In this document: positions 1 through 32,360 of the stretch, piece by piece
Numbering within the stretch: the stretch's first letter is position 1
How the letters are laid out: every line of letters starts with the position of its first letter
Source: a virus
Virus record (IMG/VR): IMGVR_UViG_3300035698_006160
Coordinates: 1 to 33,019 of that record
Length of the DNA: 33,019 nt
Direction: 5' to 3' (one strand)
Made by a program: the position numbers and the translations under genes
Notes under the pieces: generated by a model
Told to the model about the DNA's origin: nothing
Database searches by the model: none
What the model saw: the letters and a program-made list of their open reading frames with translations, nothing else

Positions 1-93
1 GAGGCCATGAACAATTGCGGCATGGACTCTGCCACTGGCCAGTGCGACCAGGCCGGCAGTGAATACTGTGATTTTGAGTGCCCCTTCAGATGA
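1..93 (+). CDS. Cys-rich microprotein, C-terminal part (duplicate of the gene at 32836)
   Basis: This is the 3' part of the 49-residue gene that starts at 32836, seen again here because of the terminal duplication. Base 1 is the first base of codon 20 (Glu). The fragment carries the four cysteines of the protein and stops with TGA at 91-93. The next gene starts at ATG 90, giving an ATGA overlap. It is not a separate gene; see the full-length entry. Confidence 0.8.
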   Translation, partial: EAMNNCGMDSATGQCDQAGSEYCDFECPFR

Positions 94-127
94 CTGTAGG
101 GCAACAGCTTGGCGCTAAGTCAGAGAA
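1..127. repeat. Left copy of the 127-bp terminal direct repeat
   Basis: These 127 bases are identical to the last 127 bases of the window (32893-33019). The copy begins inside the 49-residue Cys-rich gene and ends inside the methyltransferase gene, so the reading frames of both genes run unbroken across the join. The length equals a common assembler k-mer size (127). The simplest reading is therefore that it marks a circular assembly graph, not a biological terminal repeat. Circularised length is 32,892 bp. Confidence 0.95.
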
Positions 128-668
128 AGGGACGAAAGAAAAGGATGGCTTCTATGCCACCCCGGCCAACCTGACCAGAGACCTGCTGGCTGTTGAGCAG
201 TTTGATGGGCCTATATGGGAGCCGTGCGCAGGCATGGGGCACATGAGCAAGGTGATGATTGAGCTGGGCTATAAGGTTGAAAGCACTGACCTGGTGGACA
301 GGGGCTATGAGCCGGCACAATCACGCATTGATCTGCTGATGGAGTATCAGCTGATGGCGCCCAACATATTCACCAACCCACCATTTAAGCTGTTTAAGCA
401 GATGGCAGCTCATGCGCTATCATTGGGGCCCAGAAAAATGATTTTCCTGGGTAAGCTGTCAGCGCTGTCACGGATGGAGTGCGCAGAGCTGTGGGATGAC
501 CCACGCTTTGCCAGATACTACGTTTTTAGATACGGCACGCGCCCATCATTGCTGAAAGATGGTGATGAGGCGTGGCTTGGTTCGGGCGGTATGCTTGACC
601 TGTGCTGGTTTGTTTGGGAAGCTGGGGCTGACACCCATGGTGAGCTTCGGCGCATTGGGAAAGACTGA
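90..668 (+). CDS. DNA N6-adenine methyltransferase-like protein (orphan)
   Basis: This 192-residue protein looks like a class I SAM-dependent DNA methyltransferase of the phage N6-adenine type. The SAM-binding motif I is EPCAGMGHM (residues 44-52), an acidic residue follows the next strand (Asp67), and NPPF (96-99) is the catalytic motif IV. The FYATP segment near residue 21 is usual in this group. I chose ATG 90 because it overlaps the upstream stop as ATGA; an in-frame GTG at 78 is possible. No restriction endonuclease lies nearby, so it is probably an orphan enzyme protecting phage DNA or altering regulation. It has no visible target-recognition domain, so the target sequence cannot be predicted. 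Confidence 0.8.
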   Translation: MTVGQQLGAKSEKGTKEKDGFYATPANLTRDLLAVEQFDGPIWEPCAGMGHMSKVMIELGYKVESTDLVDRGYEPAQSRIDLLMEYQLMAPNIFTNPPFKLFKQMAAHALSLGPRKMIFLGKLSALSRMECAELWDDPRFARYYVFRYGTRPSLLKDGDEAWLGSGGMLDLCWFVWEAGADTHGELRRIGKD

Positions 669-680
669 AGGAGAAAGACA

Positions 681-1646
681 ATGGCTGACCACAAGGCGTG
701 GTTTCCCTTCTATGTGGGAGACTACCAGAAAAAGACCAAAAGACTGACCACCCAGCAGCATGGTGCATATTTGCAGATCATGCTTGACTACTGGGAAAAT
801 GGCCCCATTCCAGATGATGCCGGCAGCATAGGCAGTGTCACAGGGCTGCCAACAGCAGATGGCACGCTGCACCCAGATGTGGCCAAGGTGCTTGGCGCAT
901 ACTTCCGGCTAGATGATGGGCGCTACATTCAAGACCGCATAGAGCATGAGCTGGCAAAAACTGAGGCAGCGCACAGCAAAAGAGCAGCGGCCGGCAGATC
1001 AGGTGCGGCAAAGCGATGGGGAAAAGATAGCCCAACTCATGACCCGGCTGATGGCAATGCCACACTGCTTGAAGAGCAAAGCGATGCACAATCACAGTCA
1101 CAGTCAGATAAGAAAGAATCCATTGCGCCAGACGTCTACTCAAAAGAGTTTGAGACCTGGTGGGCACAGCTGCCAGGTGAGATGAAAAAGGGGAAAGGCA
1201 AGGCCTTCAACTATTTCAAGCGGGCCAAGAAAAGCCACACGGCAGAGCAGCTCACTGCAGCGGTGCGCATGTATATCAAAGACGTATTTGAGAAGCGTGA
1301 AACAAAGCCTGACTTTCCATTCTGCCATGGCAGCACCTGGCTGTCAGAAAAGCGCTATGATGATATGGAGATTCCAGACTTTCTGAAGCGTGAAATGCCA
1401 AAGAAAGAAGAGCCCCTAGATGCGTGGAAGGCAGCGCTGAAAAGAGAGATTGGGCCAACCGCATACCAGGCATGGATTGCCAAGACCACCATGCGCACCA
1501 ACAAGCTGGGCCCGGTTATTGTCTGCCCCTCAGATTTTCATGCTGATAAAGTCAGGGAGCAATTTGACCCCCAGATAGGCAGGCATCTGAAGCAGGCAGG
1601 GCATGAATTTACGCGGGTGCAGTACGAGGTTGCACCCAGTGGTTGA
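681..1646 (+). CDS. DUF1376 replication-type protein with DnaA domain I-like C-terminus
   Basis: The 321-residue protein has two recognisable ends. Residues 1 to about 85 match DUF1376, with FPFYVGDY, LTTQQHGAYL and the GRSGAAKRW tail, a winged-helix-like domain common near phage replication genes. After a Ser/Gln-rich linker and a middle region, residues 246-305 resemble DnaA domain I (DnaA_N): a Trp and Leu in the first helix, an AYQAWI core and a PSDFHADKVREQF strand-helix. In DnaA this domain binds DnaB helicase and regulators such as DiaA. I infer a loader or adaptor that recruits the host helicase, or a competitor of host DnaA. An AAGGAG ribosome site precedes ATG 681. No AAA+ domain is present. 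Confidence 0.75.
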   Translation: MADHKAWFPFYVGDYQKKTKRLTTQQHGAYLQIMLDYWENGPIPDDAGSIGSVTGLPTADGTLHPDVAKVLGAYFRLDDGRYIQDRIEHELAKTEAAHSKRAAAGRSGAAKRWGKDSPTHDPADGNATLLEEQSDAQSQSQSDKKESIAPDVYSKEFETWWAQLPGEMKKGKGKAFNYFKRAKKSHTAEQLTAAVRMYIKDVFEKRETKPDFPFCHGSTWLSEKRYDDMEIPDFLKREMPKKEEPLDAWKAALKREIGPTAYQAWIAKTTMRTNKLGPVIVCPSDFHADKVREQFDPQIGRHLKQAGHEFTRVQYEVAPSG

Positions 1647-3307: not shown

Positions 3308-3855
3308 CTGAAGCCACAAAAATTGAATGGGCTGATGATACATTAAACCCATGGACTGGCTGCACCAAGGTCAGCCCAGGCTGTGACAATTGCTATGCTG
3401 AAGACTGGGCAAAGAGATGGGGCCAGGTCAAGTGGGGCAACCACCCCAGAAAACGCACCGCTGATGCCAACTGGAAGAAGCCACTGAAGTGGAACAAGCA
3501 GGCAGAACAGGCCGGCACCAGGCGCAGGGTTTTCTGCGCATCTCTGGCTGATGTGTTTGACAATAAGGTTGACCCAGAATGGCGTGCAGACCTGTTTGAC
3601 ATGATCATGGTCACGCCACACCTTGACTGGCTGCTGCTCACCAAGAGGCCACAGAATGTGCCGGCAATGCTGCCTGATGATTGGTATGATAACCCATGGC
3701 CCAATGCACGTGAGATGAGCGCTGCATGGGCGCGTGACATTCACATACAATGTGCAGAAAACGGGGTGGCATTTTTCATGAAGCAGATGACCAAAAAGGC
3801 ACCCATACCAGATGACTTGTTGGTGCGACAATTTCCACAAACAGGAGACCAATGA
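3304..3855 (+). CDS. DUF5131 (phage Gp37/Gp68 family) protein with internal deletion
   Basis: The N-terminal 120 residues match the DUF5131 family very well: [15 protein letters not shown], a Cys cluster at C20, C27 and C30 (C-x6-C-x2-C), [10 protein letters not shown] and [11 protein letters not shown]. The C-terminal part also matches ([21 protein letters not shown]). At residues 132-136 (about 3697-3711) the sequence jumps from NPWPN directly to AREM. Normal family members have about 60 residues here, carrying the GTS/VE, EPL and GGESG segments. At 183 residues it is shorter than the usual 230 or more. The family's reaction is not known to me; the Cys cluster suggests a metal or Fe-S site. 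It may be a damaged or minimal enzyme. Confidence 0.8.
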
Positions 3856-4208
3856 TGCCCAACCAAACTGATGGCGCGGCTGCCGAGCGCCTGCAATCTT
3901 TCATCGAGCGCATAGAACGGCTGGAAGAGGAAAAGAAAAACCTGACCGCTGACATTCGTGAAGTGTATGCAGAGGCCAAGTCTAGCGGATTTGACACCAA
4001 GACCATGCGCAAGGTGGTGGCGGTTCGCAAGCTAGATGAAAGTGAGCGTCAGGAGCAAGAAGCCCTATTTGACACGTATATGAGGGCCTTGGGCTACGAT
4101 GAGACCCCACTGGGCAAGGCTGCTGAAGATGCCAGCGTGACAGTCACCGCGGTGGTGCCAAAGGGCAAGGGTGCCAAGAAAAACCCGTCAGAGCAGGTCA
4201 CGCACTAA
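3852..4208 (+). CDS. gapR-like: GapR-family (DUF2312) nucleoid-associated protein
   Basis: The 118-residue protein contains the full DUF2312 signature in residues 8-82: [42 protein letters not shown] and the YMRALGYDE end. In Caulobacter, GapR clamps overtwisted DNA ahead of forks and transcription and stimulates gyrase and topoisomerase IV. The basic C-terminal tail here (KGKGAKKN) goes beyond the core. The start ATG 3852 overlaps the upstream stop; ATG 3855 is an equal alternative, both after AGGAG. The family points to an alphaproteobacterial host. The phage copy may relieve torsion during phage replication and late transcription, or compete with host GapR. Confidence 0.9.
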
Positions 4209-31553: not shown

Positions 31554-31582
31554 AATATACCCTGTTGACAGTACCGCGTCAA
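31554..31582 (-). promoter_or_regulatory. Leftward early promoter, near-consensus sigma70
   Basis: On the minus strand, TTGACG (31582-31577) is spaced exactly 17 bases from TATATT (31559-31554), five of six matches in each hexamer. It drives the leftward recombination operon starting at 31509. The dyad at 31562-31585 covers its -35 and spacer, so a bound regulator would block it. Confidence 0.7.
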
Positions 31583-31585
31583 CAG
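31562..31585. promoter_or_regulatory. Operator candidate O2 (CTGTTGAC-N8-GTCAACAG)
   Basis: CTGTTGAC (31562-31569) and its exact reverse complement GTCAACAG (31578-31585) with an 8-base centre. TTGACA (31565-31570) inside it can serve as a -35 of a rightward promoter, with a poor -10 (CATGGT, 31589-31594, spacing 18) before the regulator gene. One site thus covers both divergent directions, the usual design of a phage control switch. Confidence 0.6.
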
Positions 31586-31618: not shown

Positions 31619-31822
31619 TTGAAACCACTGAAAAAAATACGCCAGCAACTGGGCATCACCCAAGTTGAGTGCGCAGCTGCCATGAATAGGTCACAGCAGT
31701 TTGTCTCTGACTGTGAGCTGGAAGGGAAGAGCAGCAGCCCAACCCTTGAAGACCTATTCAGGCTCAAGGATGCGTACCCAGACCGCCTGACCGCTGATGA
31801 CATTGTTTCACTGTTTGCATGA
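31619..31822 (+). CDS. XRE/Cro-type helix-turn-helix regulator (TTG start)
   Basis: The start is TTG 31619, seven bases after GAAGGAGG, giving 67 residues. An in-frame upstream codon (31565) lies inside the operator and is rejected. The protein is one HTH_XRE domain: IRQQLGITQVECAAAMNRSQQFVSDCELEG, followed by SSPTLEDLFRLKDAYP. With no oligomerisation domain it resembles Cro more than CI. It would repress its own and the leftward promoter through the dyads. The TTG start implies low translation. The next ATG overlaps its stop (ATGA). Confidence 0.8.
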   Translation: MKPLKKIRQQLGITQVECAAAMNRSQQFVSDCELEGKSSSPTLEDLFRLKDAYPDRLTADDIVSLFA

Positions 31823-32148
31823 TGCAACAGCGTGGCAGGGCAGCTCTGGTGGCCTTCTGTGAGCAGCATGGCCTTGATGTGGCCGAAATCACAGGCAACC
31901 GCCGTGGGCAGCCGCTGGCACGCTGGCGCCAGTACGCGTACCGTTATGTGTCAGAGCAGTGCCCAGAGCTGTCATATCCAGAGCTGGGGCACATCTTTGG
32001 GGGGCGTGACCACACCACGATCATGCACGGCATCAAAAAGGTGGGGGGCAAAAAGACTGCCTTGAGCGGGCCACCAGCCACATTTGAAGAGCTTGAAGAA
32101 AATCAAACCAATATCGTTATCTTTCCAACTGAAGGGAAAAGAGCATGA
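31819..32148 (+). CDS. DnaA domain IV-like DNA-binding protein
   Basis: The 109-residue protein looks like the C-terminal DNA-binding domain of DnaA, without ATPase. RWRQYAYRYVSEQCPELSYPELGHIFGGRDHTTIMHGIKKV (residues 35-75) has the basic helix and the GGRDHTTIMHG signature (61-71), which reads DnaA boxes in host DnaA. The N-terminal 30 residues (RAALVAFCEQHGLDVAEIT) form a helical extension in the place where DnaA_C starts. It could bind DnaA boxes on host or phage DNA and act as an initiator helper, a decoy or a regulator. It is coupled to the XRE gene. Confidence 0.85.
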   Translation: MMQQRGRAALVAFCEQHGLDVAEITGNRRGQPLARWRQYAYRYVSEQCPELSYPELGHIFGGRDHTTIMHGIKKVGGKKTALSGPPATFEELEENQTNIVIFPTEGKRA

Positions 32149-32360
32149 GCACCAAGAAAGAAAAGCGCACCAAGACTGTTGACAATCAGGTCAAGGATAT
32201 GTGGGGCAAGATGGCAGTGGCTGGTGCCAGAAAGGCCATAAAGAAAGCGGGTGAGGCCTGTGGGCCATTAGATATGCAAAGCGCTGAAGACCTTGCTGTG
32301 TACGCGGAATCATGGATGGACCGCGCCGGCTATGTGGGCATGAAGTGCAAGGGCATATAG
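32145..32360 (+). CDS. Small basic hypothetical protein (71 aa)
   Basis: The ATG overlaps the DnaA-like gene's stop as ATGA. The N-terminal half is basic (KKEKRTKTVDNQVK, ARKAIKKAG), and the second half is acidic and helical (QSAEDLAVYAESWMDRAGY), with two Cys. Linked to the DnaA-like gene, it could be a partner, but no family is recognised. Confidence 0.6.
   Translation: MSTKKEKRTKTVDNQVKDMWGKMAVAGARKAIKKAGEACGPLDMQSAEDLAVYAESWMDRAGYVGMKCKGI

Follow-up and report, generated by a model that had tools for sequence, protein, structure and literature searches.

The window, the whole stretch of viral DNA analysed here (33,019 nucleotides), starts and ends with the same sequence. Since the first and last 127 bases are identical, it represents a circular genome of 32,892 bp. 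The genome is of the podovirus type, with P22-like portal, capsid and terminase genes. One early operon contains, in this order, a Cro/CI-like regulator gene, a gene for a DnaA domain IV-like protein, two small ORFs, a methyltransferase-like gene and a gene for a DUF1376 protein with a DnaA domain I-like C-terminus (Table 1). The domain IV and DUF1376-domain I genes are on the same strand and 1.42 kb apart across the circle junction, in agreement with the original prediction, which had placed them about 1.4 kb apart in a circular operon. The opposite strand encodes an ERF annealing protein, an exonuclease-like protein, an SSB and NinB, as identified with Pfam and PHROGs. Neither an AAA+ DnaA domain nor a helicase, loader, primase or polymerase turned up among the ORFs scanned with Pfam and/or PHROGs, a scan that covered all but a few, mostly short ORFs. 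The earlier statement that neither DnaA-like protein carries an AAA+ domain and that the phage has no helicase, primase or polymerase was therefore upheld for these ORFs.

Table 1. Features of the early operon and of the intergenic region in front of it
Feature	Position	Strand	Matches and remarks
Perfect inverted repeat CTGTTGAC-N8-GTCAACAG	31562..31585	.	Intergenic between divergent early operons; overlaps TTGACA-like -35
Cro/CI-like HTH regulator	31619..31822	+	HTH_3 22.9 bits (cut-off 23); PHROG transcriptional regulators; directly upstream of domain IV gene, overlaps its start
Free-standing DnaA domain IV-like protein, 109 aa	31819..32148	+	PF08299; HTH domain 31858-32043
Small ORF, 71 aa, between the two DnaA-like genes	32145..32360	+	No family
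ORF, 121 aa	32362..32727	+	Weak HNH-endonuclease PHROG match, E 0.011
DNA methyltransferase-like gene, directly upstream of DUF1376 gene	78..668	+	PHROG 799, 9e-41
Putative replisome organizer, 321 aa, N-terminal DUF1376 and C-terminal DnaA domain I-like	681..1646	+	PF07120, PF11638, PHROG 9327
DUF1376 domain, residues 7-92	699..956	+	PF07120 59.4 bits, cut-off 30.1
DnaA domain I-like (KH-type) domain, residues 250-304 in Pfam match	1428..1592	+	PF11638

The gene directly 3' of the DUF1376 gene (1746-2276) matched no Pfam family and has a CpG observed/expected ratio of 1.13 compared with 0.53 for the genome, a contrast suggesting that it was recently inserted. A gene at 3852-4208 encodes a GapR-like (DUF2312) DNA-binding protein. 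GapR/DUF2312 is a nucleoid-protein family known from alphaproteobacteria, and the presence of this gene suggests an alphaproteobacterial host. A DUF2312 gene also adjoins DUF1376 in Bradyrhizobium phage OP596614 (L082).

The 109-aa protein matched Bac_DnaA_C (PF08299) over residues 14-75 with 55.6 bits (E 5.4e-15; Pfam cut-off 31.5), and its best PDB match in a phmmer search was domain IV of E. coli DnaA (1j1v, E 4.4e-10). Bases are contacted in the E. coli domain IV-DNA structure by R399, R407, D433, H434, T435, T436 and H439. In the alignment, the phage protein was identical to E. coli DnaA at R399, R407, Q408, D433, H434, T435, T436 and H439. Judged by its sequence, this product is a free-standing DnaA domain IV, as had been predicted, and it should bind double-stranded DNA with DnaA-like specificity. 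The DnaA model TIGR00362 aligned with its C-terminal end to this protein (49.4 bits) and with its N-terminal end to the DUF1376 protein (16.9 bits). Both scores were far below the full-length cut-off of 343.9, as fragments would be. Compared with a full DnaA, which has an AAA+ domain III with Walker motifs within one polypeptide, each of the two proteins displayed one end only and gave no AAA+ match.

The 321-aa protein matched PHROG 9327 'primosomal protein' (1.3e-28). Its C-terminus, predicted to resemble DnaA domain I at about 1416-1595, matched DnaA_N (PF11638) with 27.7 bits (cut-off 24.6, E 2.3e-6) over profile positions 8-64 of 65. A profile built from two sequences, the tail and a plasmid relative, had 2e0g (domain I of E. 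coli DnaA) as its top match among 177,635 PDB sequences (E 6.7e-5), and a three-sequence profile again ranked 2e0g first (E 3e-7) and B. subtilis domain I second, the E values of both profiles being partly owed to the included relatives. AF2 without an alignment gave no usable model of the whole protein (pLDDT 41). The 76-residue tail (1416-1643), modelled from its single sequence, displayed an alpha-alpha-beta-beta-alpha-beta order at a pLDDT of 72. Structural comparison of this model, which had been proposed as a check, placed DnaA domain I at ranks 1, 2 and 7 in VIA-align (Z 6.0 for B. subtilis, 5.6 for H. pylori, and 4.8), and DciA from the V. cholerae DnaB-DciA complex at rank 4 (Z 5.2). 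Z values of 5-6 are modest alone, and unrelated ribosomal proteins ranked among and just under these matches; Foldseek returned nothing at E below 0.001 with the same model. Since sequence and predicted fold agree, and it is on this agreement that the case rests, we conclude that the C-terminus is DnaA domain I-like.

The tail keeps counterparts of W6, W25 and F46 of E. coli DnaA, while E21, N44 and W50 of the helicase/DiaA face correspond to A, S and K. In E. coli DnaA, E21 and F46 contact DnaB and W6 accounts for dimerisation, and E21/F46 are not universal even within DnaA proteins (PMC5448010). The KH fold is common to DnaA domain I, DciA and DnaX domain V, all of which have been described to contact DnaB (PMC9912922). 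The loss of E21, N44 and W50 together with the retention of W6 would suit a tail that recruits host DnaA through domain I-domain I contacts instead of DnaB directly, with host DnaA supplying the AAA+ opening at the phage origin that the phage, having no detected AAA+ domain, would lack. However, the F46 counterpart is kept as well, and such recruitment would need boxes at the phage origin, of which no cluster was seen. We therefore consider it quite unlikely.

The Cro/CI-like gene probably starts at the TTG at 31619, which follows AAGGAGG, and the inverted repeat at 31562-31585 is a probable candidate for the operator of its product. The domain IV gene follows and overlaps this regulator gene, and domain IV by itself is a DNA-binding HTH domain. 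The solo domain IV might on these grounds serve the early operon as a regulator of transcription or copy control, mechanically unrelated to the DUF1376 protein, but this is unlikely in view of the recurring closeness of such genes to organizer genes across unrelated phages.

No exact DnaA box (TTATNCACA) was found in the phage genome, one-mismatch sites numbered 19 compared with 25 expected, and these near-boxes did not cluster. A DnaA-box origin in the phage is therefore not supported. Over the 80-odd domain IV loci, 35 exact boxes were counted compared with 18.6 expected; these contigs are redundant, no clusters were seen and no inference was drawn. An iteron scan gave no peak in the early region from 31.5 kb to 3 kb. 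Direct repeats peaked at 10-11 kb, 5 kb, 24 kb and 30 kb, and part of these peaks are repetitive coding sequence.

The box-contact residues are intact, yet no exact box occurs in the phage genome, so targets of the domain IV protein may be in the host. It might occupy the boxes of the host oriC, with the tail acting on host DnaA or DnaB by blocking or capture, and host initiation would thereby be shut down or diverted. The retained counterparts of W6 and F46 would fit this, and there is a precedent in the prophage protein YfdR, which binds DnaA domain I via F46 and inhibits initiation (PMC4776307, PMC5448010). However, about one exact box is expected by chance, so that zero is no sign of avoidance, and the tail is fused to an organizer rather than forming a stand-alone inhibitor. 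The linkage of solo domain IV to replication-organizer genes in many phages also fits a replication module better, and an attack on host initiation appears rather unlikely.

More than 80 IMG/VR loci and several named phages were found to encode solo domain IV proteins, whose lengths of 78-283 aa are too small for DnaA. Among 44 distinct sequences, R407 was present in all 44 and R399 in 43; DHTT-H was also kept, a conservation biased by search patterns that favoured DHTT-H. A DUF1376 gene occurred in nine of 50 domain IV records, on the same strand and within about 2 kb where mapped, and in seven of 80 DUF1376 loci domain IV was encoded no more than about 3 kb away, in the same orientation. Other neighbours were O-like, DnaD-like and other organizers, including a 'replisome organizer' in MW202613. 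Adjoining DUF1376 or organizer genes were found in OP596614, MN988516, MN988468, MW202613 and many IMG/VR contigs. Both families occurred together in two records among 50,697 named phages, compared with 0.012 expected, these records being not fully independent. A DnaB-type helicase was encoded in only one of the 50 domain IV records. The combination of solo domain IV and an organizer thus recurs as a module, chiefly in phages that lack a DnaB-type helicase of their own, many of the records being fragments. At another locus (L012:1218-3574), the solo domain IV gene is followed directly by a primase-helicase (Toprim + AAA_25) gene, which differs from the usual organizer partner.

The domain I tail showed a different distribution. 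DnaT is another primosomal module. Among 88 DUF1376 proteins, five displayed a DnaT domain and one, that of the present phage, displayed DnaA_N. None of the 50 domain IV records gave a DnaA_N match in a search that does detect DnaA_N in the present window. Searches with back-translated peptides found no close relatives of the DUF1376-DnaA_N protein or of its tail in viral and genome contigs, and tblastn in named phages gave doubtful matches only, the longest being a Klebsiella phage protein without a DnaA_N match. None of these searches, which have limited sensitivity for so short a domain, found a DnaA_N tail combined with solo domain IV anywhere else. The tail on DUF1376, and hence its pairing with solo domain IV, looks to be the rare half of the module. 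In the literature, no paper was found that links DUF1376 with DnaA or describes phage DnaA_N organizers; a 'DnaA-like replication initiator' is among the annotations of Bacillus phage Pony (PMC3853050). Co-occurrence, which had been proposed as a check, was thus seen in other phages for solo domain IV with DUF1376 but not for the DnaA_N tail. The arrangement had been called unusual, which applies to the tail and the pairing, whereas solo domain IV is common.

The analysis shows which two DnaA domains are present, that their genes belong to one operon, and that solo domain IV recurs beside organizer genes. The simplest interpretation of the module is replication initiation with host DnaB, given that no phage helicase was detected, that the operon is common to both genes and that the domain IV-organizer pairing recurs in other phages. 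We consider it somewhat more probable than not (about 0.55) that the DUF1376-domain I protein is a replisome organizer docking host DnaB, with the domain IV protein as its DNA-binding partner or regulator. The DUF1376 part and the middle region would place the organizer on phage DNA (a putative binding), and the domain I-like domain would contact host DnaB in place of a loader-type C-terminus, so that no phage helicase loader would be needed. The solo domain IV, made from the same early operon, would be a sequence-specific binder of double-stranded DNA. Beside the organizer, its role would most likely be to mark or organise the origin of the phage, or to tune early transcription and initiation. 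Its sites might be diverged ones, at the origin or promoter of the phage, or might be located in the host. Strand opening must come from elsewhere, since no AAA+ domain was found; candidates are host DnaA, transcription, and bending of the DNA by the organizer. We infer DnaB recruitment, origin binding and cooperation of both proteins.

The PHROG 'primosomal protein' families matched by the DUF1376 protein are in favour of an organizer. Counting against it are the lost counterparts of E21, N44 and W50, the modest fold Z and the lack of DnaA boxes or iterons marking an origin; the terminase relatives of the phage in IMG/VR also had no domain IV or DUF1376-domain I genes in the flanks examined. 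Of the proposal that the two pieces bring host DnaB to phage DnaA boxes, the part concerning host DnaB can be kept, but not the boxes.

The label 'split DnaA' was overstated, as there is no AAA+ motor, domain I forms one end of a DUF1376 organizer and solo domain IV genes are common in phages. Because the AAA+ domain is absent, the two proteins cannot form a DnaA-type filament, and the label therefore describes origin, not function. It is doubtful that domain IV and the organizer-fused domain I act together in trans at the phage origin as a two-protein, motor-free DnaA. If they did, initiation could run on the two end modules of DnaA without an ATPase filament.

Phages hijack DnaB via unrelated loaders such as lambda P and those of the DnaC/DnaI types. 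An organizer ending in DnaA domain I would, if confirmed, reuse the helicase dock of the host's own initiator. Its pairing with solo domain IV would be a natural, small-scale way of testing which functions of DnaA depend on the AAA+ motor. The pairing may also indicate why the common solo domain IV genes, usually annotated just as 'DnaA-like', adjoin phage organizer genes.

The solo Bac_DnaA_C proteins of Rhizobium phages RHph_N28_2 and RHph_TM3_3_3, Bradyrhizobium phage ppBeUSDA76-2 and Caudoviricetes MW202613 are likewise short and consist of domain IV only. As here, they keep R399/R407/DHTT-H and are encoded near a DUF1376 or organizer gene. However, no DnaA_N was found in their partner organizers. 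DUF1376 primosomal or organizer proteins such as YdaU of Rac (PHROG 9327, 3992) share the N-terminal DUF1376, a length of about 250-320 aa and the location in a replication region, and the present protein differs from the YdaU type in its domain I-like C-terminus, where five others have DnaT.

A DnaA_N tail on a non-DnaA initiator has precedents in sphingomonad plasmid initiators and in one BFVD phage protein. The latter (A0A6J5SN45; uncultured Caudovirales phage; 340 aa), annotated as 'DnaA N-terminal domain containing protein', has a domain that was the best viral structural match to the tail. The sphingomonad plasmid initiators at L088:4870-6213 and L183:3061-4212 have a helix-turn-helix and a homologous, DnaA_N-type C-terminal tail and are located beside dnaN (sliding clamp); HTH_36, RP-C and DnaA_N were confirmed with Pfam in an Erythrobacter plasmid initiator. 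These HTH_36/RP-C initiators (Erythrobacter aureus and Sphingosinicella plasmids) carry DnaA_N at the C-terminus as here, but differ in having another N-terminal DNA-binding domain, a plasmid location, their own dnaN and no adjacent solo domain IV annotated. Bacterial DnaA and DciA share the domain I/KH-type fold with the tail, and DnaA also shares domain IV. Unlike bacterial DnaA, the present phage has no AAA+ domain III and carries the two end domains on separate polypeptides.
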